From contig CAKZLL010000230.1 in the NCBI GenBank assembly GCA_937125475.1, forward strand, positions 1-64,000: a DNA stretch of 64,000 bases, in the 5' to 3' direction. The DNA comes from an uncultured Saprospiraceae bacterium (GTDB lineage Bacteria > Bacteroidota > Bacteroidia > Chitinophagales > Saprospiraceae). Below, piece by piece: positions 5,402 to 17,581 of this stretch. The notes beneath the pieces are model-generated. The model worked only from the letters and a program-made list of their open reading frames with translations, searched no databases and was not told the DNA's origin. The position numbers and the translations under genes were made by a program. Every line of letters begins with the position of its first letter. Position 1 is the first letter of the stretch.

Positions 5402-5445
5402 TCGTCTTATAGCGTCCAAATAATGAACAATATCTTTTTTATTGG

Positions 5446-5479
5446 AATGGAAAGTTAGTGAATGCTAGCTTTCCATTTT
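5446..5479 (+). terminator. Terminator after porT
   Basis: The hairpin arms AATGGAAAG and CTTTCCATT with extra pairing at the loop are followed by a T run. It lies 45 bases past the porT stop codon. Confidence 0.75.
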
Positions 5480-5677: not shown

Positions 5678-6151
5678 ATGTTATTCAATTGGAGAAAACG
5701 AATGGTCACTAAAGCAGTTGATTTTGCGCCTACTTTAATTTCATGGTTTCAAGCTGAGAAAAAATGGACATTTACCATTGAGGATTATCGTCAAATGCCA
5801 GTCAATTCATTAGGGCGTTGTGTGGGAGATTACTTAGATGAGCATGGGTTTAGCTTTGTTTATAATGGGCATCATCATGATATACGGCACATTTTGCTAA
5901 ATTATGACATGAACCCAGAGGGCGAGATTAGAATGCAAGCTTTCATGGTCGGCAATAATTGGACATGGAACTATAAAGGATGGATAGCTTTTTTGTTTGG
6001 TATGATAATGTTACCTGAACTTTGGGTGACACTTGCAAAAGATTGGCAACGAGGAAAAAAAGCCCAAAAAATCAATCAAGTAAAGTGGATGAATTTTTTA
6101 AATGACCCGATTGATCAACTTAGACAACGATTTAACATTCAGCAATTATAA
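5678..6151 (+). CDS. Coq4-family protein
   Basis: About 157 residues from the ATG at 5678; the frame stays open upstream to 5633, so ATG 5648 is possible. The metal-binding Coq4 signature HD-x2-H-x11-E is complete as H67, D68, H71 and E83 (from HDIRHILLNYDMNPEGE). In eukaryotes and some bacteria Coq4 acts in ubiquinone synthesis, at the C1 decarboxylation/hydroxylation step. This organism appears to make menaquinone, so the substrate here is unclear. A hydrophobic segment (WIAFLFGMIMLPELWVTLA) suggests membrane association. Its 3' end is followed 13 bases later by the first of five paralogous membrane proteins. Confidence 0.8.
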   Translation: MLFNWRKRMVTKAVDFAPTLISWFQAEKKWTFTIEDYRQMPVNSLGRCVGDYLDEHGFSFVYNGHHHDIRHILLNYDMNPEGEIRMQAFMVGNNWTWNYKGWIAFLFGMIMLPELWVTLAKDWQRGKKAQKINQVKWMNFLNDPIDQLRQRFNIQQL

Positions 6152-6164
6152 ATTAAAAAAAGTC

Positions 6165-6611
6165 ATGGTAGAAAGGTATTCTAATTTAATATATGCCGTT
6201 AAAGTTTGGTTATTTAGTGTATTATGTTCGCCAATATTAGTGATGATATCTGGTGTTACAGGAGTAGAAAAAAATTTGCCTAAAATAATTGAAATATATG
6301 GATTAATGATTGTTTATGGCGGTTTATTGTCTTTGCCTTCTCTTTTTATTTTTATGATAATTGTGTATTTTTTTACTAGAGGTAAGAAGCCAAAAAATCG
6401 ACAAAAAATGAATGTTCAGATTGTAGCAATTATTCTTTGTATAGCGCCTATTTTTTTATTTTTTATGCAATTGGGTAGCGGTGGTTTAGATCCAGAGGTA
6501 ATGTTAATTGGTTGTTCTTACTTAGCGACGATTTCTTTTGGTATCTGGTTTTTTGATTATAAATCTTCGCATTTAATGGAAACGGAGGAAATTGATGACC
6601 TTTTGATTTAA
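6165..6611 (+). CDS. Array membrane protein 1 (unknown paralogous family)
   Basis: This 148-residue protein has about four hydrophobic helices (near 10-30, 43-68, 90-110 and 118-138) and a basic cytoplasmic-looking segment RGKKPKNRQKM between helices 2 and 3. The start MVERYSN is chosen by alignment with the four following genes. Shared motifs are KVWLFSVLCSPI near the N terminus, VQIVAIILCIAPIF, and SYLATISFGIWFFDYK near the C terminus, then an acidic tail ETEEIDDLLI. I do not recognise the family. It is closest to array protein 2. Confidence 0.85.
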   Translation: MVERYSNLIYAVKVWLFSVLCSPILVMISGVTGVEKNLPKIIEIYGLMIVYGGLLSLPSLFIFMIIVYFFTRGKKPKNRQKMNVQIVAIILCIAPIFLFFMQLGSGGLDPEVMLIGCSYLATISFGIWFFDYKSSHLMETEEIDDLLI

Positions 6612-6622
6612 AATATAAAACA

Positions 6623-7072
6623 ATGATAACGAAATATTCTAAATTATTATATGCCGCTAAAATCTGGTTATTTAGTGTGTTTGGTTCACCAATAATGATG
6701 TTGGGTTTAGGTGTTCCAAAGAGAATAGACAGTTTATCTGAAACCGTAGAAACATATCAATTGATGATTATTTTTGGTGGTTTATTTTCTTTGCCTTCTC
6801 TTCTTATTTTTATGATAGCCATTTATTTTTTTACTAGAAATCGTAAAAAGAATAAAGAAGAACAAAAGATGAGTATTCAAATTATAGCTGTTATTCTTTG
6901 TTTAGCACCAATTTTTATATTTTTCGCACTCTTGGAGAATTCTGGTATAGGTGCTGATGTAATGTTAATCAGCAGTTTTTACTTAGCGACGATTTCCTTC
7001 GGTATTTGGTTTTTTGATTATAAAATGTCACATTTAATAGAAACGGAGGAAATTGATGACCTTTTAATTTAA
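6623..7072 (+). CDS. Array membrane protein 2 (unknown paralogous family)
   Basis: This 149-residue four-helix membrane protein is closely similar to its upstream neighbour, with an identical C-terminal ETEEIDDLLI and the same FGIWFFDYK motif. The start MITKYSKLLYA is preceded by AAAACA and lies 11 bases after the previous stop codon. The same leader and first codons recur before array protein 3 at 7083, pointing to recent tandem duplication. The segment RNRKKNKEEQKM between helices 2 and 3 is strongly basic. The function is unknown. Confidence 0.85.
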   Translation: MITKYSKLLYAAKIWLFSVFGSPIMMLGLGVPKRIDSLSETVETYQLMIIFGGLFSLPSLLIFMIAIYFFTRNRKKNKEEQKMSIQIIAVILCLAPIFIFFALLENSGIGADVMLISSFYLATISFGIWFFDYKMSHLIETEEIDDLLI

Positions 7073-7082
7073 ACATAAAACA

Positions 7083-7541
7083 ATGATAACGAAATATTCT
7101 ACTATAATTTATGCAATCAAAGTTTGGTTATTTAGTGTATTAACTTCGCCAATATTGATGATAGTATTTGGTGTAGTTAAAAATGGTCAAAGTTTATCCG
7201 AAATGTTAGGAGTATATGCAAAATTTGCTATTTATGGAGGTATTCTTTCTCTGCTGTCGGTCTTTCTTTTTAGTATTGTTGTGCGCTTTTTTGCTAAAGA
7301 TAGAAAGCGGCGTAAAAATCAGCAAAAAGTGAATATTCAAATTGTAGCTACTATTCTTTGTATCGCACCGTTTTTTATGTTTCCTAAAGAATTTCGTTTT
7401 TTTAATTTAACTGAGGTTATAGAAATAATAGCCATTATTTATTTATCGACAATCTCCTTTGGTATTTGGTTTTTTGATTATAAAATGCCTCATCATTTGA
7501 ATGAGAAAGAACTTCTTGATCATTTGAAAAATATAAAATAA
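7083..7541 (+). CDS. Array membrane protein 3 (unknown paralogous family)
   Basis: This 152-residue paralogue starts MITKYSTIIYAIKVWLFSVL. It keeps VNIQIVATILCIAPFF and LSTISFGIWFFDYK, but its tail (NEKELLDHLKNIK) differs from proteins 1 and 2 and resembles that of protein 4. The basic loop is KDRKRRKNQQK. The stop codon TAA shares its last base with the ATG of the next gene, so the two are probably translationally coupled. Confidence 0.85.
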   Translation: MITKYSTIIYAIKVWLFSVLTSPILMIVFGVVKNGQSLSEMLGVYAKFAIYGGILSLLSVFLFSIVVRFFAKDRKRRKNQQKVNIQIVATILCIAPFFMFPKEFRFFNLTEVIEIIAIIYLSTISFGIWFFDYKMPHHLNEKELLDHLKNIK

Positions 7542-7996
7542 TGAAAAGTAAATCTTCTAATTTATTATATCCATTTAAAGTTTGGTTATTCAGTCTTTTG
7601 ATCTCTCCTGTACTTATTCTGTTGTTTAGTCTAGTAATTGAATCTCCTCAAGGAGTTACGTTATATGATTTTCTGACTGTTTATGTATCTATAATTCGTG
7701 ATATAGGTTTGTACTCTATTCCATCAGGACTTTTTTTTATGGCGGCAGTGAATATAATTACAAGGTCGAATACTAATCAAAAACGGAAAAAGATTAATAT
7801 TCAAATTGCAGGGATCATTCTTTTTTCACTACCTTTTTTTATATTATTTGCCCTTTTTGGCTTGGATCTAACAAGTATCCTTATTGCATCATCAGGTCTT
7901 TGTTTAGCAACAGTTTCTTTTTGGATTTGGTTTTTGGGGCGTAAAATTCCTGATCAATCGGATGAGAAAGAACTTTTTGAACATTTGGTAGAATAA
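7541..7996 (+). CDS. Array membrane protein 4 (unknown paralogous family)
   Basis: This 151-residue member is more diverged: KVWLFSLLISPVLIL and INIQIAGIILFSLPFF are recognisable, but the last motif reads TVSFWIWFLGRK instead of the usual FGIWFFDYK. The tail DEKELFEHLVE matches that of protein 3. The start overlaps the stop of protein 3 by one base. About four membrane helices are expected. The function is unknown. Confidence 0.82.
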   Translation: MKSKSSNLLYPFKVWLFSLLISPVLILLFSLVIESPQGVTLYDFLTVYVSIIRDIGLYSIPSGLFFMAAVNIITRSNTNQKRKKINIQIAGIILFSLPFFILFALFGLDLTSILIASSGLCLATVSFWIWFLGRKIPDQSDEKELFEHLVE

Positions 7997-8008
7997 AAAT
8001 ATATAATA

Positions 8009-8440
8009 ATGACAAAAGGATTTTCTGCTATATTGTATGCATTCAAAATTTGGTTATTTAGTGTCTTAGTTTCGCCAATCATATTAATTCTTCTTTCAAC
8101 TCCTGCTGCTTCAGGAGATGCTTTTAATGGAATATCTAAACTTTATTGGCTTATTGTATTTATTGGAGGGCTATGCTCTTTGCCCTCTTTAATTCTTTTT
8201 ATGGGAATAATTTATGTGGCTATTAGTTGGGAAGTGCGCAAATTTTTACAGAAAATAGCTATTCAAATCTTCGCTGTTTTGCTTTGTTCGATTTCTATTA
8301 TCTTATTTTTTAAGGAGATAGGAGAGAAGGAGTTTCCGATTGAAATAATAGGACTTTATTTATCGACGATTTCAGTTGGTATTTGGTTTTTTGATTATCA
8401 ATTGCCTACTATCGAAGAAGAAAATAAATTATCGTGTTAA
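8009..8440 (+). CDS. Array membrane protein 5 (unknown paralogous family)
   Basis: The last of five paralogues has 143 residues and starts MTKGFSAILYAFKIWLFSVL. It keeps YLSTISVGIWFFDYQ but has a shorter loop between helices 2 and 3 without the strong basic patch. The 3' end overlaps the 3' end of the convergent RDD gene by 12 bases, with no hairpin terminator between them. The function is unknown. Confidence 0.82.
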   Translation: MTKGFSAILYAFKIWLFSVLVSPIILILLSTPAASGDAFNGISKLYWLIVFIGGLCSLPSLILFMGIIYVAISWEVRKFLQKIAIQIFAVLLCSISIILFFKEIGEKEFPIEIIGLYLSTISVGIWFFDYQLPTIEEENKLSC

Positions 8441-9157
8441 AACGATATAATCCTTGATTAATGTTTTTAAAAATTCAATCTGATTTTTAGGTTTATCATC
8501 AATATCTAGCTTTAGTTTCAAATCTCTCACCAATTGCGATAAAACGGATAAATGAGCTTGATTACTATGCTTTTGAACACGACTAATAACGTTTTTTATC
8601 AATAACATATCTTCTTCATTCAATTGGCGAACCTGTGGATATAGTGGTTCATATTGGCTGAGCGTGCTAATGTTCTCGATGTCTTCTAACCTAAAACGCA
8701 AATGAAAACGTACTTTTATTAACGTCGTGCCAGCAGTCAAATCTCCTAATCGTTGCGCTTTATCGGACGAACTAACAAGCAAAGACGCAATACTTCCCAA
8801 TGATAAATAAACATCAACCGAGCGAAATGCCCAGCGCGTCATATAATCAGAAAAATTAGGTGCTTTTCCGTCCAGTTTTACAACCTTAATCCCCATGATC
8901 ATTTTGCCTAATGTTTGCCCATTATTGGCGTACTCCATGATTAAAGTATAAAAAATGACAAGTGGCCAAACCATCAGGTAAGTGAATAAATTTGTGTTTC
9001 CATAGCCAAATGCGCCATAATAGAATAGCGATAGGATCAAAATACCTGTACCAACAATGAAAAAATCCAACATATAAGCTAAGGCTCGATCTCTTAGACC
9101 AGCCAATTCATATTGGATTGTTACTTTTTGGGTAGTGGTTATATCTATTGTTCGCAT
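8429..9157 (-). CDS. RDD-family membrane protein
   Basis: This 242-residue protein has an N-terminal RDD domain: the hallmark Arg-Asp-Asp pattern is spread over LRDRALAYMLDFFIVGTG, followed by GQTLGKMIMGIKVVKLDGK and RLGDLTAGTTLIK. Two or three membrane helices lie within residues 25-140. The C-terminal 90 residues are soluble and helical. RDD genes commonly neighbour SpoIIM-like, DUF4129, MoxR and DUF58 genes; here the RDD gene is divergent from the rest (next at 9483). Its molecular role is not established; RDD proteins have been linked to ion transport. Confidence 0.9.
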   Translation of the reverse strand: MRTIDITTTQKVTIQYELAGLRDRALAYMLDFFIVGTGILILSLFYYGAFGYGNTNLFTYLMVWPLVIFYTLIMEYANNGQTLGKMIMGIKVVKLDGKAPNFSDYMTRWAFRSVDVYLSLGSIASLLVSSSDKAQRLGDLTAGTTLIKVRFHLRFRLEDIENISTLSQYEPLYPQVRQLNEEDMLLIKNVISRVQKHSNQAHLSVLSQLVRDLKLKLDIDDKPKNQIEFLKTLIKDYIVLTR

Positions 9158-9482
9158 AAAATTGAATTTATGATTACGCGGTCAAGCCTCGTGATTTTTA
9201 ATTATTTTTTGGAATAGTAATAAATATTTGATCAAAAAAAATGAACTTAAAATTTTAAAAAAAACATATATAAATAGTACAATTTGACCAATGCTCTCCT
9301 GTAAATTTAAGAATAAAAACAATGAGAAGCACAGGAACATCAATAAATATAAGATACTTGTTAATATTTTCTGAAATTATCTACATAATTACCAAAAAAA
9401 TTGTATTTTCAATTTTGTATGGTTCTTTTAATGCTTATAGCATTAAGCCATTTATTCATTCATCAATTTCTATTAGCGATTC
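9158..9482. other. Divergent intergenic region, no gene seen
   Basis: This AT-rich stretch separates the divergent RDD and SpoIIM-like genes and should hold both promoters. I see no full -33/-7 match and no strong hairpin. A 74-codon open frame starting at 9322 runs into the next gene and looks like chance. Confidence 0.5.
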
Positions 9483-11357
9483 ATGCGAGAGACAAACTTC
9501 ATCAAACAAAATAAAGAAAAATGGAGACGTTTTGAGAGAATGTTAAAATTCAAACAAAATGATCCTCAAAAACTAAGTAAGCTCTTCATTCAAATTACGG
9601 ATGACTTGTCCTATGCTCGCACTTTTTATCCTAATCGCTCCGTTCGAGTTTATCTCAATAATTTAGCACAACAGATTTTTTATAGTATTTATAAAAGTAA
9701 GAAAACCAAACGCGGTGGTTTATTTAAGTTTTGGACAGATGAATTGCCTCAACTAATGTATCACGCACGGAGAGAATTGCTTTTATCGTTCTTGATTTTT
9801 ATGGCGGCTATGCTCATCGGCGCATTTTCGACTTTGATGGATCCTGAATTTCCAAGAGTGATCTTGGGGGATAATTACGTAGAAACGACCATTTCGAATA
9901 TTCAAAATGGCGATCCTATGGCGGTTTATAAGCAAAGGAACGAAATTGATATGTCCTTTAGCATTACTTATAACAACCTCCGAGTGGGCTTTTTGTCCTT
10001 TATTAGCGGTTTGTTTGCTGGTCTTGGTACGATAGGTGTTTTGATTTATAATGGAATTATGGTCGGTGCGTTTCAGTACTTCTTCTATGAACAAGGACAA
10101 TTACGGGAGTCTTTCTTAACGATTTGGATACACGGAACATTAGAAATTTCTACAATTATATTGGCTGGTTGTGCTGGTTTGACATTGGGTAAAGGCTTGG
10201 TTTTTCCAGGAACTTATTCGCGCCTTCAATCCTTACAACGCTATGGGCTACGCGCTTTAAAAATCATGATTGGGATTATTCCAATTATCATTGCTGCGGG
10301 TTTTATTGAGGGATTTGTAACGCGTTATACCGATGCGCCAGATATTTTAAGACTAGGAATTATCTTAGCTTCTTTGTCATTTATCCTGTTATATTTTGTA
10401 TGGTATCCGCGCCAAAAAGCTAAAGAAGGAGTTAAAAAACCAGTAAAAGATACGAGAATTCCGCCTTCAAGACCATTGAATATTAATTACAAAGAAATCA
10501 AAACGAGTGCAAATATTTTCACTGAAACGTTTCGCCTTTACAGCCAATATTTCAGTAAAATTTTCTCAGCTGCTTTTTTATTGGCTTGCGCTTATACCCT
10601 AATATTACTATTTAAATATCAATTAAATATAGGTGAAGTCATTGCTTCCTATCGCGGTCATTCGTTTGAAGATTGGCTTTTTAATCAGCATTTTGCCAAT
10701 TTATTCCAGTTCTTCAATTACGAAAAAGTACCTATTTTAGGTGTGATTAATACCGTTGTTTTTGGAACGATGGTTTATATGGGGTGTTATTATTTTATAA
10801 GAAATTCAGAAAAGCACATTCGTCTTTCGACTGGTTTTCATATTATAGGTTGGTTAGGAGCTGTTGGTATTTGGGGCATGTTTAATGCTATGATTTGGCA
10901 AAGGATAGAAGTTGCTGTTTTAGGAATGCTTTTGTTTCCGCTCTTATTGCTTTGGCTTGTAGTGATGCTAAAAGAAAGCAAAAATCCGTTTTCTGCTATT
11001 GTTCGAACATTGTCGCTTTGGAGTAGTAATTTTAGTTCAGTCTATGGGGTTTTTCTGATTATGCTTTTGATTAGTTTCTTGTTTTCCTATATATTTAGTT
11101 CGCCAATATTATGGTTTTTAATGGATATTATTGGTTGGAATTTTTCTTTGCCAGAAGCTGAAATGTCTGCGATTTTTGCAGGTATTTTAACATTTATTTT
11201 TTCCATGTTTTTCTGTTTGATTTTTCCTGTTTTTATGATTAGCACAGGATTATTATATGCGAGTTTGAAAGAAGTGAGAGACGCAGATGGGCTTCGAGAA
11301 AAAATTGAAATGATTGGGGTTAAGAAACAAGCTTTCGGATTAGATCAAGAACGATAA
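9483..11357 (+). CDS. SpoIIM-family (DUF95) integral membrane protein
   Basis: A 624-residue protein. Residues about 1-330 form the SpoIIM/DUF95 domain: a cytoplasmic N terminus with YARTFYPNRSV, a helix near 98-118, the glycine-rich FISGLFAGLGTIGVLIYNG, and the characteristic HGTLEISTIILAGCAGLTLG. Residues about 350-600 add roughly six further helices. Non-sporulating Bacteroidota carry this family within the RDD/DUF4129/MoxR cluster, where it is thought to form a membrane complex. The start at 9483 is taken; an ATG at 9540 is an alternative. It is followed 18 bases later by the DUF4129 gene, so co-transcription is likely. Confidence 0.88.
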   Translation: MRETNFIKQNKEKWRRFERMLKFKQNDPQKLSKLFIQITDDLSYARTFYPNRSVRVYLNNLAQQIFYSIYKSKKTKRGGLFKFWTDELPQLMYHARRELLLSFLIFMAAMLIGAFSTLMDPEFPRVILGDNYVETTISNIQNGDPMAVYKQRNEIDMSFSITYNNLRVGFLSFISGLFAGLGTIGVLIYNGIMVGAFQYFFYEQGQLRESFLTIWIHGTLEISTIILAGCAGLTLGKGLVFPGTYSRLQSLQRYGLRALKIMIGIIPIIIAAGFIEGFVTRYTDAPDILRLGIILASLSFILLYFVWYPRQKAKEGVKKPVKDTRIPPSRPLNINYKEIKTSANIFTETFRLYSQYFSKIFSAAFLLACAYTLILLFKYQLNIGEVIASYRGHSFEDWLFNQHFANLFQFFNYEKVPILGVINTVVFGTMVYMGCYYFIRNSEKHIRLSTGFHIIGWLGAVGIWGMFNAMIWQRIEVAVLGMLLFPLLLLWLVVMLKESKNPFSAIVRTLSLWSSNFSSVYGVFLIMLLISFLFSYIFSSPILWFLMDIIGWNFSLPEAEMSAIFAGILTFIFSMFFCLIFPVFMISTGLLYASLKEVRDADGLREKIEMIGVKKQAFGLDQER

Positions 11358-11375
11358 GAAGATAAAAATATAAAT

Positions 11376-12134
11376 ATGAAGATAAAAGATACACTCCTGC
11401 TTTGTACTGCTCCTTTCTGGAGAATGGGCATACTGTGCGTGTTCTTTTGGTTGTGTGGTAATATGGCAAGCGCACAAGACGCTGGAAAAAGGGGATATAT
11501 GAAATCTTCTTTGCAAGAAAGTGAAACAGCAGCAGCTTCTTGGAGCAATGCCGTAGAAGGATTGGATTACACGCCTCGTAAGAAAAAAAAGAAAAAAGAT
11601 AAAGTAGATGATGATTCTGATTCTAGTCCAAATCTAGATTTTTTAAATAATTCTCTTTTTAGTGGTAATTGGTCGGCTATATTCAAAGTATTATTTTTTG
11701 TGTTAGTCATTGGGCTTTTGACTTTTCTCATTATTCGCATCATGGGCGGAACAGCCTTTTTATCTAATCGAAAAGTCGAAAAGGAAGAGATCAATTATTC
11801 TATTGAAACCGTAGAAGCAGATATTCATAAATCGGATATTGAAGGATTTGCTCAACATGCACTTCGAGAGAAAGATTATAAATTAGCCATTCGATTGTAT
11901 TATTTACAAGTACTTAAAGTCTTGTCTCAAAATAAATCTATTAAGTGGAAACGAGACAAAACGAATAATGAGTATATCCGAGAAATGCGTCAAAACGCTC
12001 ATTTTAAAGACTTTAGAAAAACAACGCGCTTATTTGAGCAAGCTTGGTATGGCGATGTACAAATACAGGAACAGGATTTTGAACGAGTAAAACCACAATT
12101 TGTAAATTTACTTGATGCTTTAGACAAAAAATAA
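11376..12134 (+). CDS. DUF4129-domain membrane protein
   Basis: A 252-residue protein with an N-terminal signal sequence (ending near NMASAQ), a highly charged linker with a run of Lys then DDDSDSS (about 69-85), one membrane helix (about 103-123) and a C-terminal cytoplasmic DUF4129 domain (about 165-252). That domain contains ALREKDYKLAIRLYYLQVL and RLFEQAWYGD. The domain resembles transglutaminase-associated and MoxR-cluster proteins. The gene sits directly after the SpoIIM-like gene and before the DUF4350 gene, in the usual cluster order. Confidence 0.85.
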   Translation: MKIKDTLLLCTAPFWRMGILCVFFWLCGNMASAQDAGKRGYMKSSLQESETAAASWSNAVEGLDYTPRKKKKKKDKVDDDSDSSPNLDFLNNSLFSGNWSAIFKVLFFVLVIGLLTFLIIRIMGGTAFLSNRKVEKEEINYSIETVEADIHKSDIEGFAQHALREKDYKLAIRLYYLQVLKVLSQNKSIKWKRDKTNNEYIREMRQNAHFKDFRKTTRLFEQAWYGDVQIQEQDFERVKPQFVNLLDALDKK

Positions 12135-12152
12135 TTCTATGAAATGAGGTAG

Positions 12153-12173
12153 AATCCTATTCATTATAGGATT
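12153..12173 (+). promoter_or_regulatory. Hairpin between the DUF4129 and DUF4350 genes
   Basis: AATCCTAT and ATAGGATT pair around a five-base loop, without a following T run. It could be an attenuator or RNA-processing site inside the operon; it is not a good terminator. Confidence 0.35.
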
Positions 12174-12246
12174 TAACTCTTGCAAGTAGCATTATTATTG
12201 TAGCAGAAAGCTATTTATTAAAAAGCAGCAAAGCGTAATTAAAGAT

Positions 12247-13542
12247 ATGTTCGATAAACGATCAATTATAATTTTGGCCATTATTTCGGCTGTTATTCTA
12301 TCACTTTTGATATACATCAATCGCCTCAATCGAAATGTGTATAACTGGAGTGAGACGTATAAGACCGAAAGTAAAGAGCCTTATGGTGCTTTCGCCTTTC
12401 ATGAGTTTCTCTATGATTATTTCCCTAATCATGGACTGACAGACATCTACAAACTAGAAGAAAACCTGCCCGAAGATCCAGAAGAAAAATCTAATTATGT
12501 CCTTCTAGGTTATGGAATGCATATGGATACCGCCCGAAGTGAAAAGTTATTAAAATTCGTTGAAAATGGAAATAATGCATTTATTATAGCGCGTTATATT
12601 CCAGCAGATTTTTTCGAGCGTTTTTTATATTTTAATGAATGTGATTTTGATTATAGGAAGAGTTATCTCGAAACCTATGACACAATAGGAACTCTATCTT
12701 TAATTCATCCTAAATTAAAAACCAAGACAAAATATACCTATACTTATAACCATAAAAGCGAAGGGAATTCTTGGCAATATATAGACTGGGCAAATCTTTG
12801 TTATGAAGAGCCTGATTTCTTAGAATTGGGTTATTTAAATGACGGTTTGCCCAATTTTGTTCGTGTTCCTCATGGTGAAGGTTATTTTTATTTTCACACT
12901 ACACCTTATGCTTTTACAAATTATCAATTGTTAAAAAAACGCAATCGAAAGTATGCGAGTAGGGTTTTAGCACATTTGGAAGAAGGGCCAATTTATTATG
13001 ATATTGAAAATAATATTCAAAGAATACCAGAAAGAATTGAAGACGCTGGACAGGATAATGATGATATGTTTGATGGTCAGAAAGCTGCATTTGATGATAA
13101 AACACCTTTGGAATTTATCTTGTCGCACCGTAGTTTGGCGTGGGCATGGTATTTAATGATAGGATTGAGTGTGTTTTATTTGTTCTTTAGAGCCAAACGC
13201 AAACAGCGAATTATTCCAGTTCTTGAACCGAATACAAATACATCATTGGAGTTTGTAGAAACGATTGGAATGCTTTATTGGCAACAAAATGATCATCGTC
13301 AATTAGCTTTACAGCAAATGAAACTGTTTATCAATCATGTCAATACACGCTATAATTTCTCTATTAAAAATGTAGATGACCGATTATTAAATCGCTTGTC
13401 CGTAATCACAGAAATTCCAGAAAAACACTTGAAGTCGATATTTGATAGTTATAAAAAAATTAAAAATTCAAATGCCGTTTCTGAAACAGAAATGATTGCA
13501 TTTCATCAATTGATAGATTATTTTTATAAAAATTGTAAGTAG
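12247..13542 (+). CDS. DUF4350-domain membrane protein
   Basis: A 431-residue protein. A membrane helix lies near 7-25, then an extracytoplasmic DUF4350 region in which EPYGAFAFHEFLYDYFP and NYVLLGYGMHMDTARSEKLLKFVENGN resemble the ThuA/GATase-like fold of this family. A second helix lies near 297-315, and the cytoplasmic C-terminal domain is helical. It is the fourth gene of the rightward cluster and precedes MoxR by 84 bases. The role of DUF4350 is unknown; the arrangement suggests a membrane complex serviced by MoxR. Confidence 0.82.
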   Translation: MFDKRSIIILAIISAVILSLLIYINRLNRNVYNWSETYKTESKEPYGAFAFHEFLYDYFPNHGLTDIYKLEENLPEDPEEKSNYVLLGYGMHMDTARSEKLLKFVENGNNAFIIARYIPADFFERFLYFNECDFDYRKSYLETYDTIGTLSLIHPKLKTKTKYTYTYNHKSEGNSWQYIDWANLCYEEPDFLELGYLNDGLPNFVRVPHGEGYFYFHTTPYAFTNYQLLKKRNRKYASRVLAHLEEGPIYYDIENNIQRIPERIEDAGQDNDDMFDGQKAAFDDKTPLEFILSHRSLAWAWYLMIGLSVFYLFFRAKRKQRIIPVLEPNTNTSLEFVETIGMLYWQQNDHRQLALQQMKLFINHVNTRYNFSIKNVDDRLLNRLSVITEIPEKHLKSIFDSYKKIKNSNAVSETEMIAFHQLIDYFYKNCK

Positions 13543-13626
13543 GTGTTTTGTAATAAAAGTTTTTAAATCAACTTTTAAAACAAAGTATCAAGTTTAATTA
13601 AAATTTATTATTCTAAAGAAGAAGTA

Positions 13627-14634
13627 ATGGACGAATTATTGGACAACCAACCAACGAATGATCCTATTTTAGGAAAAAGTAAATTGCCCCTTCACAAAAT
13701 TAGTGAAGCAGTCGATAAAGTCACTGATGAGATCCAAAAAGTTATCATTGGTCAAAGCGAAATGATTGAATTGATGTTGGCGGCATTGTTCACTAATGGT
13801 CATATTTTAATCGAAGGCGTGCCAGGAATTGCAAAAACCTTGACCGCTAAATTATTTGCGAAAGCGATTTCGGTCGAATTTAATCGAATTCAATTTACAC
13901 CCGATTTGATGCCAACAGACGTGATGGGAACGACTGTTTTCAATATGCAAAATTCTGAATTTACATTTAATAAAGGCCCTATTTTTTCTAATCTGGTCTT
14001 AATTGATGAAGTCAATCGTTCGCCTGCAAAAACGCAATCTGCGCTTTTTGAGGTGATGGAAGAAAGCCAAATAACAGTCGATGGGAATACCTATCCGATG
14101 GATTTTCCTTTCTTTGTCATTGCTACTCAAAACCCGATTGAGCAAGAAGGAACGTATAAATTACCAGAAGCACAACTGGATCGTTTCTTATTTAAAATTA
14201 ATTTGACTTATCCTTCTTTGGATGATGAGAAAGCGATTTTGATGAGATTTCGGGATGATTTTTCTATGCGTCAAGTGAAGGATGTACAAGCAGTTATTAG
14301 TGCATTAGAAATTAAAGAATGCCAAAATATCATCGAAAAAGTCTTTATTAAGGACGAGTTACTAGAATATATTAGTAAAATTGTAGTTGATACACGGAAT
14401 AATGGCGATTTGTATTTGGGCGCTTCTCCACGTGCATCATTAGCAATAATGAAAACTTCTAAAGCAATCGCTGCAATGAATGGGCGAGATTTTGTAACGC
14501 CTGATGATATTAAAACGGTCGCTTATCCTGTCCTTAATCACCGTGTTATCTTAATGCCAGAGCGAGAAATGGAAGGCTATACCGCACAAGATGTGATTAA
14601 CGATATTGTTAAAAAGATTGAAGTACCTAGATAG
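13627..14634 (+). CDS. MoxR-family AAA+ ATPase
   Basis: A 335-residue AAA+ ATPase of the MoxR class, thought to act as a chaperone for assembling membrane or metal-containing complexes. Walker A is GVPGIAKT at residues 64-71. Walker B is LVLIDEVNRSP, sensor 1 is ATQNPIEQEGTYKLPEAQLD, and sensor 2 lies in GASPRASLAIMKTSKA. The length is typical. It sits between DUF4350 and DUF58 genes, its standard neighbours, the latter usually bearing the binding partner. The spacer after it is built from 17-base repeats (14635-14743). Confidence 0.95.
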   Translation: MDELLDNQPTNDPILGKSKLPLHKISEAVDKVTDEIQKVIIGQSEMIELMLAALFTNGHILIEGVPGIAKTLTAKLFAKAISVEFNRIQFTPDLMPTDVMGTTVFNMQNSEFTFNKGPIFSNLVLIDEVNRSPAKTQSALFEVMEESQITVDGNTYPMDFPFFVIATQNPIEQEGTYKLPEAQLDRFLFKINLTYPSLDDEKAILMRFRDDFSMRQVKDVQAVISALEIKECQNIIEKVFIKDELLEYISKIVVDTRNNGDLYLGASPRASLAIMKTSKAIAAMNGRDFVTPDDIKTVAYPVLNHRVILMPEREMEGYTAQDVINDIVKKIEVPR

Positions 14635-14743
14635 GATTGAAATGATTGTGTGATTGAAATGATTGTTTGATTGTGTTGCTCCTTCGTCGCAATTGTATTT
14701 GTTACAATCAGTGAAGCGACACAATCAGCGAAGCGACACAATC
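14635..14743. repeat. 17-base tandem units and inverted repeats in the moxR-DUF58 spacer
   Basis: Starting right after the moxR stop codon there are two 17-base units beginning GATTGAAATGATTGT (14635, 14652) and a third diverged unit GATTGTGTTGCTCCTTC (14669). Two 17-base units, AGTGAAGCGACACAATC (14710-14726) and AGCGAAGCGACACAATC (14727-14743), then follow and are near reverse complements of the third. Transcripts could fold into a long hairpin. Either a regulatory or RNA-processing structure, or simple slippage expansion. Confidence 0.75.
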
Positions 14744-14758
14744 AAAAAAAACAACTCA

Positions 14759-16258
14759 ATGTTAGATTTTTTAGACGACATAGAATTATTTAGCACTCGA
14801 TTTTTCGTAGTGTTATTTGCTGTATTAATGGCGATCCTTGCGGTCTATTTGGGTTGGGGAGCGATGGCAGCAGCGGTAAAAGTAAGTGCTGTACTGGCTT
14901 TATTTGTCGGAATTTTTTTCCTGTTTCGCCGAGGTTTAAACAATGTATTTTTATCGGATCGATTCTTTTGGATCATGGGCGGAATTATTGTTTTATTCTG
15001 TGCGAGTTTTATGTGGGATATTCTTTTTTCAGTGGCGCAAACGGCATTGATTGTCTTCGGAGCGATTTTTTTAGTAGATAGTTTAATGCTTTTTAATCCG
15101 AATGTTACACCGAAATGTAAGCGAATTACACCCAAACGGATGTCGTTAGGTGATGATAATAAAATAGCAATTGAAGTTGAATCTTTTTATAGATTACCAT
15201 TGTCTTGTACGCTGATAGATGAAATTCCTGTACAGTTTCAAAAACGAGATTTTGCTTTAGAGTTCAATCTTAAACCGAATGAAGAAAAGTACCTCGAATA
15301 TGAATTAAAGCCCTTGTCGCGTGGCGAGTATCTTTTTGAAGATATTAACTTATTTATTCGCAATTCGATTGGGATTGTAGAACGACGTATTACTTATGAA
15401 TTGCAAGAGAGTGTTCCTGTTTTTCCGTCGATTTTGCAAATGAAACAATTCGAACTCAAATCCTTCCAAACTTTATCTGGTTATAAAGGTATTAAGAAAA
15501 TGCGCCGAATTGGTCATAGTTACGAATTTGAGCAAATCAAAAACTATGTGCGAGGCGATGATTATCGAAGTATCAATTGGAAGGCAACGAGTAGGAGAGG
15601 GCGTTTAATGGTCAATCAATTTCAAGATGAACGCGCTCAACAAGTTTATACAGTGATCGACAAAAGTCGTGCAATGAAAATGCCTTTTAATGGCTTGAGC
15701 TTGATGGATTATGCGATTAATACGGGCTTAGTTATTTCTAATGTTGCATTGCAAAAACACGATAAAGCGGGTTTACTAACGTTTTCTGACAAAATCGGAA
15801 GCGTCATCAAAGCGGATCGACAAGGCAATCACCTTAATAAAATTCTCAATGCCTTATACCGAGAGAAAGAACGGGATTTGGAAGCAAATTATGAATTATT
15901 GTATAGTTGTGTGAGGCGATTTATTCAAGGACGAAGCTTGGTTTTTGTGTACACTAACTTTGAAAGTATGTATGCAATGGAACGTGTTTTGCCTATTTTA
16001 AGAAAAATTAATAACTTGCATTTATTAGTTGTTGTTTTCTTTGAAAATACAGAAATGCGGGAATATTTGGATAAGGATGCCGTAGATACGCAAGAGGTTT
16101 ATTTTCAAACTACAGCCAGACAATTCCTGACCGAGAAACAGCAAATCGTTTATAAATTACGTCAATACGGCATTCAATCTATTCTAACTGCTCCAGAAGA
16201 TTTATCTATTAATACAGTTAATAAATATTTAGAATTGAAATCAAGAGGACTGATTTAA
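14759..16258 (+). CDS. DUF58-domain membrane protein
   Basis: The start MLDFLDDIELFSTRFF at 14759 gives 499 residues; the frame opens 96 bases earlier inside the repeat spacer, which is unlikely to be coding. The N terminus holds several membrane helices (about 15-100). The middle is beta-rich. The DUF58 signature RGDDYRSINWKATSRRG is followed by a von Willebrand A-like segment (VYTVIDKSRAM). DUF58 proteins pair with MoxR ATPases. It ends the cluster and is followed by a hairpin at 16286-16336. Confidence 0.92.
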   Translation: MLDFLDDIELFSTRFFVVLFAVLMAILAVYLGWGAMAAAVKVSAVLALFVGIFFLFRRGLNNVFLSDRFFWIMGGIIVLFCASFMWDILFSVAQTALIVFGAIFLVDSLMLFNPNVTPKCKRITPKRMSLGDDNKIAIEVESFYRLPLSCTLIDEIPVQFQKRDFALEFNLKPNEEKYLEYELKPLSRGEYLFEDINLFIRNSIGIVERRITYELQESVPVFPSILQMKQFELKSFQTLSGYKGIKKMRRIGHSYEFEQIKNYVRGDDYRSINWKATSRRGRLMVNQFQDERAQQVYTVIDKSRAMKMPFNGLSLMDYAINTGLVISNVALQKHDKAGLLTFSDKIGSVIKADRQGNHLNKILNALYREKERDLEANYELLYSCVRRFIQGRSLVFVYTNFESMYAMERVLPILRKINNLHLLVVVFFENTEMREYLDKDAVDTQEVYFQTTARQFLTEKQQIVYKLRQYGIQSILTAPEDLSINTVNKYLELKSRGLI

Positions 16259-16357: not shown

Positions 16358-16978
16358 ATGAAAAAAAATCGAAACTACTTTTACTATCTTATTCCTGTGA
16401 TTTTAGGTTTTATATTGGGATATTATAATCCAGAAGGAAAACTTGATTTCATAGTTCAGAAAAGCGCGGCACGTTCTGTTTCTAATTATGATGGTTGGAG
16501 AACGAATTTGAAATTGGCTAGAAACGATCAAGGCATGTTGATGCGTGGAATTGTGGCTCGAATTGGATTAGGAGCGAATACCAAGGAAGAGGCGATTTAT
16601 CTGTCGGCGAGAAAAGATTCAGAAGGGCAGCGTTTAAATTCCGCAAATGAATATAAAATCATTTTGGACGAAGCTATTCCTGTTGATGCATTTTGGAGCA
16701 TTACATTATATGGAGGCGATGATTATCTAATTAAAACGGATTATAATAAATATGGTGTGTCGAGTTTTCAAAACTTAGAAACACGAGGTGATGGTAGGAT
16801 TGTTTTGACTTTATCAAAAAACAAACCTGAAAACGATGCGAATTGGATTCCTTTGCCTAAAGATGATCAAGATCTAACGCTGACATTACGTTGTTACAAT
16901 CCACAAGAAAAAATGTTAAATGATCTTAATAATGTTAAATTACCTGTCGTTAAAAAAGTAATCAAAGGAGAAATTTAG
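16358..16978 (+). CDS. DUF1214-domain exported protein
   Basis: This 206-residue protein has a single N-terminal hydrophobic segment (YFYYLIPVILGFILGYY), likely a membrane anchor or signal. The rest matches the DUF1214 C-terminal half of the DUF1254/DUF1214 family: MRGIVARIGLGANTKEEAIYL, an AFWSITLYGGDDYL strand pair, YGVSSF, and the closing LRCYNPQ. The DUF1254 half is a separate gene 54 bases downstream. In many bacteria the two domains are fused with DUF1254 first. The biochemical role is unknown. Confidence 0.85.
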   Translation: MKKNRNYFYYLIPVILGFILGYYNPEGKLDFIVQKSAARSVSNYDGWRTNLKLARNDQGMLMRGIVARIGLGANTKEEAIYLSARKDSEGQRLNSANEYKIILDEAIPVDAFWSITLYGGDDYLIKTDYNKYGVSSFQNLETRGDGRIVLTLSKNKPENDANWIPLPKDDQDLTLTLRCYNPQEKMLNDLNNVKLPVVKKVIKGEI

Positions 16979-17032
16979 AGGATTGCACCCTTATTTATTC
17001 ATTTTTCATTCACCTAACTTATTACACATCAT

Positions 17033-17581
17033 ATGAAATATATAAAAATTACTGCGATTTCTCTTTTCTTGTTCCTGCTTTTTTTTGTAATTGGAACAGT
17101 TGCAAGTGTTGGTCAATACCCGAAAAGTGAATTTGATCGAATTGCTCAACGAAATATTGACTTCAACGGAGGCGCATGGATTTTGGGTCATAAACAAAAA
17201 ATAATTGATTCGGATTTCAAAACTATCGTGAAACCAGCGGTAGATTTTCTTTATTCTTTTGCTACTTTAGATGCTTCCGCTGGCGCTTATGTCTTATCGA
17301 TTCCACCTATTGACCGATATTTTGTATTTCAATTTATGGAAGATGACACCGATGTTTTTAATTATATTGGGAGCAGGACACATGGAAAAAATAAAGCATT
17401 AAACATTTTATTAACGCCTCCAAATTATAAAGGAGAAACACATGGGCTAGAAACGCTTGAACTAAAAACAGAGATGGTTTGGTTATTAGCTCGGTTTCAA
17501 TTACTTAATAAAGAAGATGCGCCGAATGTTCATGCAATCCAAAATCAAGTCAAATTTACGCCAATTAAGGATTGGAAATAA
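17033..17581 (+). CDS. DUF1254-domain exported protein
   Basis: A 182-residue protein with an N-terminal signal or anchor (ISLFLFLLFFVIGTVASVG) followed by a DUF1254 domain. The domain shows YVLSIPPIDRYFVFQFMEDDTDVFNYIGSRT and an LLTPPNYKGE segment. It complements the DUF1214 protein encoded just upstream, so the two probably interact to form what is one polypeptide elsewhere. The role is unknown. Confidence 0.85.
   Translation: MKYIKITAISLFLFLLFFVIGTVASVGQYPKSEFDRIAQRNIDFNGGAWILGHKQKIIDSDFKTIVKPAVDFLYSFATLDASAGAYVLSIPPIDRYFVFQFMEDDTDVFNYIGSRTHGKNKALNILLTPPNYKGETHGLETLELKTEMVWLLARFQLLNKEDAPNVHAIQNQVKFTPIKDWK

Follow-up and report, generated by a model that had tools for sequence, protein, structure and literature searches.

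An uncatalogued family of four-helix membrane proteins forms a lineage-specific tandem array in an uncultured Saprospiraceae bacterium

What purpose is served by five consecutive genes for small, divergent membrane proteins in an uncultured Saprospiraceae bacterium, and are their products to be read as immunity proteins, as sensors or as something else? This question is raised by an array within a stretch of 64,000 nucleotides from one contig of this organism (hereafter the window), where an earlier note, made from the letters of the DNA, had described five tandem paralogues. Five consecutive paralogous genes are indeed present at the place described, all on the forward strand (Table 1), and the length range of 145–152 codons assigned to them holds for c1–c4, c5 being just below it. 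Using c2 as query against the whole genome from which the window is taken (G000; 5.76 Mb, 559 contigs, 92% complete), we retrieved the other four copies at E-values of 2.0e-55, 4.1e-41, 1.9e-24 and 1.4e-18, a match far beyond chance. The stop-to-start spacers measure 11, 10, −1 and 12 bp; with no spacer above 12 bp, no gene fits between the copies, and the array itself holds no toxin gene, so that both the tandem duplication and the absence of a visible toxin gene stand as they had been reported.

Table 1. Coordinates of the array, of its acidic tail and of the adjoining features in the window
Feature	Position	Strand	Remarks
Terminator-like hairpin	5444..5479	+	between OMP beta-barrel gene and Coq4-like gene
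Coq4-like gene	5678..6151	+	PF05019, E 4.9e-9, 36.2 bits (cut-off 22.9)
Family copy c1	6165..6611	+	148 aa
Acidic tail of c1, ETEEIDDLLI	6579..6608	+	same tail in c2 at 7040-7069
Family copy c2	6623..7072	+	149 aa; modelled with AlphaFold2
Family copy c3	7083..7541	+	152 aa; stop overlaps start of c4 by one base
Family copy c4	7541..7996	+	151 aa
Family copy c5	8009..8440	+	143 aa; without the tail type of c1-c4
RDD-family gene	8429..9157	-	PF06271, E 1.2e-18; bounds the array

The copies have diverged considerably from one another. In pairwise comparison they share 33–62% of their amino acids, with 25 invariant columns, and 52–76% of their DNA; dS ranges from 0.50 to 1.22 and dN from 0.25 to 0.66, with dN below dS in all 10 pairs (dN/dS about 0.5 to 0.7). 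Two of the common motifs pointed out beforehand, in the forms K[VI]WLFS[VL]xxSP and QIx[AG]x[IL]L, are found in all five copies, and the third, FGIWFFDYK, is exact in c1–c3 only and reads FWIWFLGRK in c4 and VGIWFFDYQ in c5. The closest pair is c1/c2 (76% DNA identity, dS 0.50), which reaches 95% identity over the last 40 bp. The elevated identity around the starts of c2 and c3, which had been taken as the mark of a recent duplication, is real and local: it amounts to 80% in the 20 bp before the ATG and to 95% in the first 20 bp, and then drops to 55%, the whole genes being 65% identical with a dS of 0.72. As the similarity at this junction is only local, the duplications are not very recent; the dS of about 0.5 for c1/c2 rules out a recent duplication of array copies, and "recent" was an overstatement.

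None of the five window copies matched an entry of Pfam or NCBIfam, and no match above a curated cut-off was obtained there for 32 members of the family (best E-values 0.0027 and 0.0022). The scores of a few members against DUF4293, the ATP synthase I chain and other small helical membrane families of Pfam all remain below the curated cut-offs (best E-value 0.0027, for one member), and comparison with PDB sequences yielded nothing convincing. A known family with an ordinary function, which the earlier note had proposed to look for by profile search, therefore did not turn up, nor was the family described in the literature listings retrieved on immunity arrays, lineage-specific expansion, Saprospiraceae tandem membrane paralogues, Coq4 in Bacteroidetes or DUF1361.

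Members were nevertheless recovered well beyond the window. A profile combining the five window copies with three from the other genome in the genus gave hits at E ≤ 1e-8 in at least 13 of 398 Saprospiraceae genomes; at E ≤ 0.01 there were at least 32 genomes, of which only the 13 are counted, and several weaker matches were dropped owing to internal stops or to a position within long ORFs. A wider profile reached at least 20 of 298 genomes of the order at E ≤ 0.001, the three weakest of which (G557, G567, G489) are probably spurious, and a subgroup profile reached, within family f20, at least 25 of 394 genomes at E ≤ 1e-5; these genome counts are lower bounds, the best 9–13 candidates per genome having been scored. 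The genome of the window carries two more copies, at G000:C185:8574-9020 (E 4.4e-28) and G000:C99:2263-2715 (E 2.6e-11). In a tree of 50 members, restricted to sequences of at least 100 aa found at E 1e-5 or better (1e-3 for the two arrays of genus g100) and omitting the duplicate locus L101, the five window copies group together (support 92/97), and most of the deeper branching lacks resolution. This is an uncatalogued family of four-helix membrane proteins of about 145 residues, scattered through Saprospiraceae and related families. A broken copy with a stop inside was also seen in G406 (L062:5659-5871).

The number of copies at matching chromosomal loci was compared among relatives. Directly after the Coq4-like gene, there are five copies in the window versus two in G001. 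Between a START_2 gene and an ECF sigma gene in genus g100, five copies are present in G190, four in G289 and three in G248 (flanks Pfam-scanned in G190 and assigned by resemblance in the other genomes), and beside a der-like gene, recognised by its sequence, there are two copies in G586 versus one in G594. A copy number fixed in all relatives, which had been named as the outcome that would speak against a variable array, does not hold, given these differences at the Coq4, ECF-sigma and der-like loci. The array is a lineage-specific tandem expansion, gaining and losing copies at fixed chromosomal sites. If right, this account adds to Saprospiraceae and their order a membrane protein family that is in no catalogue and varies in copy number from one related species to another.

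The four transmembrane helices proposed earlier are backed by an AlphaFold2 model of c2 (12 sequences; mean pLDDT 76.8, pTM 0.68), which consists of four long helices followed by a short low-confidence helix formed by the tail. Lysine and arginine residues number 3–7 between helices 2 and 3 and are few in the predicted periplasmic loops; with this concentration of charge, both ends should face the cytoplasm, and charge distribution and model together thus suggest an N-in/C-in topology. Foldseek searches of PDB and BFVD returned no match at E ≤ 0.001. The best Z obtained with VIA was 7.3, which lies within the range that helical bundles reach without kinship, and SecDF and the other candidate fold relatives, at 7.3 or less, were not used. 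Among 32 members, the columns conserved at 45% or more hold W, P, S, G, Y, K, A and aliphatic residues or F, and none of them holds D, E, H or C, an absence that speaks against an enzymatic role and against a charge-lined channel. The W, P, S-x-P and K positions are kept across taxonomic families. By comparison, conservation is lowest in the two predicted periplasmic loops (mean identity 0.23 and 0.13 versus 0.32 to 0.64 elsewhere). In these loops pN exceeded pS in five of the seven pairs tested, and the comparison of loops versus rest was not significant in any of the seven (Fisher P 0.16–0.68); positive selection is therefore not claimed, and relaxed constraint explains the loop variation as well.

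The most distinctive common element lies at the C-terminus. The two tail types recognised before could be traced in c1/c2 (ending in EEIDDLLI) and in c3/c4 (KEL(L/F)(D/E)HL), and c5 has neither; they turned out to be part of a wider pattern, a C-terminal motif common to most members within a genus. Within the genus of the window the tails are different yet related, as illustrated by EEIDDLLI in c1/c2 and DEKELFEHLVE in c4, and the members at C99, C185 and on contig C728 of G001 end in IDHL[IV][ED]-stop (IDHLI[DE] in each of C99 and C185). In genus g100, the pattern [ILVM][LI]D[DE] falls within the C-terminal 25 residues in 17 of 18 members (e.g. ILDDDLDF, LEDILDDENY) and nowhere else in them, whereas of the 62 further ORFs at these loci with a length of at least 120 aa none has it there; this contrast is descriptive, as the expression was drawn up with the tails already in view and the 18 members include orthologues of one another. 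The median identity among the 12 g100 array copies is 20%, and the tail motif is still recognisable in them. A looser motif was found in 21 of 37 Saprospiraceae members versus one of 13 members from other taxonomic families; the tail motif is missing from c5 and from one copy of G289. Between copies, the tail codons differ synonymously, indicative of selection rather than of recent conversion.

Is this tail peculiar to the family or a general tag of the proteome? In G000, a looser degenerate pattern placed at stops gave six matches versus six for the reversed control, three of the six being family members (C99, C185 and c4 of the window), and in G001 it gave three matches, one of them a family member, versus one for the control; the tail as a general proteome tag was rejected for both genomes. 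The g100 pattern was found at 11 places in three genomes versus four for the control: six in known arrays, two on contig C466 of G289 and three elsewhere. It was through the two matches on C466 that the G289 array was found, and near the three places elsewhere a family ORF was not found. If the reading set out below is right, the tail peptide would be a concrete handle for finding the partner of the family. Overall, the firm part of these findings is a repeatedly duplicated, fast-diverging family with a short tail conserved in much of Saprospiraceae.

The conserved tail and the conserved membrane motifs contrast with the variable loops, and for this reason we tentatively favour, as a possible explanation held with reserve, that the copies may be interchangeable, non-enzymatic membrane sensors or adaptors with one common cytosolic partner. 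Each protein would be a membrane-embedded sensor or adaptor and not an enzyme; its variable periplasmic loops would meet different inputs, its short acidic cytoplasmic C-terminal peptide would let the majority of the copies in a genome dock on a single cytosolic partner, and tandem duplication would add new inputs to one output. A more specific proposal, which we hold to be unlikely as it stands, would be an expandable receptor set, in which membrane parts that are nearly unrelated and carry the same genus-specific tail may pass different periplasmic signals to one cytosolic partner, duplication at a fixed site adding or removing inputs. The Coq4-like, HTH_34 and ECF-sigma neighbours hint faintly at envelope or membrane homeostasis as the setting.

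Several other readings have to be weighed against a set of sensors or adaptors, and the neighbours of the family bear on most of them; 55 distinct loci outside the window were read by eye on ORF lists and 30 neighbours there were Pfam-scanned. In a homogeneous polyimmunity locus, each copy would bind, from the membrane, a different membrane-acting toxin. Of the arrangements described so far, polyimmunity comes closest (PMC3482391, PMC12247911): Zhang et al. 2012 (PMC3482391) describe such loci as several tandem paralogues of a single type, and distant tandem paralogues without a toxin gene among them fit this description. The low conservation of the periplasmic loops would suit it as well, and in G545 a member follows directly on a 1571-aa DUF6443/RHS-repeat gene (L110:5034-10213; the member's first possible start codon comes 26 bp later), the usual place of an immunity gene, so that the two resemble a toxin-immunity pair in layout. 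However, an RHS-type neighbour directly upstream occurs at this one of the 55 loci only, whereas recurrent pairing with toxins would be the key feature, and the G545 gene is the sole polymorphic-toxin-like protein among the 30 scanned neighbours; other loci adjoin housekeeping-type genes (a der-like GTPase and an aspartokinase-like gene, both recognised by sequence). Moreover, all but a few immunity proteins are cytoplasmic and globular according to PMC3482391, whereas this array consists of four-helix membrane proteins of no curated family. Plasmids, phages and viral contigs were without a family match, and it is not obvious why an immunity protein should need a common cytosolic tail. The recombinase-associated interbacterial defence arrays of PMC12247911, whose orphan immunity genes are relatives of T6SS-cognate ones, are likewise arrays of fast-evolving small proteins in Bacteroidota; in contrast, the present array sits between ordinary-looking chromosomal genes. 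No recombinase was found among its Pfam-scanned neighbours. An immunity array is thus weakly supported and, in our estimation, unlikely. If the reading as sensors or adaptors is right, small divergent membrane proteins can stand in tandem arrays without accompanying toxins, a point relevant to how "orphan immunity" arrays are annotated.

The copies might alternatively have little or no specialised function and be the outcome of birth-and-death duplication in a small membrane protein that is weakly constrained and dispensable, a somewhat improbable account to which the sparse spread of the family in Saprospiraceae, the broken copy in G406 and the dN/dS values lend themselves; yet all five window copies are open, dN is below dS in every pair, the W, P, S-x-P and K positions persist across families and the tail is kept through synonymous change. 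A partnership with the Coq4-like protein, in which small membrane subunits would help to handle, for example, an isoprenoid lipid or quinone, appears quite unlikely. Upstream of the array, the gene order is UbiE-type methyltransferase, OMP beta-barrel protein, Coq4-like gene and c1, and the hairpin, a consensus match (two sites found in the region versus 1.2 expected by chance), would separate a Coq4-array unit from the preceding gene. With its start set at the ATG matching the G001 orthologue, the Coq4-like gene ends 13 bp before c1, and it keeps HDxxH-x11-E, with invariant H, D, H and E columns, a pattern that we take to be the metal site of Coq4; these bacteria use menaquinone and are not known to use ubiquinone. 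In the two genomes of genus g1 the gene precedes the family by 11–13 bp, and in g100 it lies two genes upstream of a member; of the six genomes with both a family hit (E ≤ 1e-8) and a Coq4-like hit (E ≤ 1e-6), five have the two within about 3 kb, by a Coq4 profile which was built from the family neighbours and favours them. On the other hand, Coq4-like genes occur in 68 of the 398 Saprospiraceae genomes, mostly without a detected member, and most members are far from Coq4: it adjoins the family in two genera only, and neighbours are not constant. The lack of conserved D, E, H and C in the membrane part speaks against such a role, too. In g100 and g62, members are preceded by DUF1361 genes and by HTH_34 regulators (Pfam confirmed three of the former and one of the latter, the others being assigned by resemblance), and in g100 members also stand beside an ECF sigma factor; a DUF1361 search of G000 and G001 gave no match, which does not amount to absence, as the control genomes gave none either. 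Next to a DUF1361/family cluster of g100, a member precedes a gene with an HD domain fused to PycTM (L056:6789-8048), which would suit a role within a membrane effector system of anti-phage or cyclic-nucleotide (Pycsar-like) type. This we regard as highly improbable: PADLOC matched one of 32 members (E 0.011), PF18967 (PycTM) was not among the matches listed for these 32, no HD-PycTM gene lies beside the window array, and kinship to PycTM was rejected at an hhalign probability of 0.2 against HD-PycTM proteins.

With regard to the wider surroundings, neither tRNAs nor Rfam families were found within the window. The RDD-family gene is convergent with c5 and overlaps its 3' end by 12 bp; it opens a row of genes at 8429-16258 comprising RDD, SpoIIM, DUF4129, DUF4350, MoxR-type AAA and DUF58, and further on, at 16358-17581, a DUF1214 and a DUF1254 gene are adjacent to each other.
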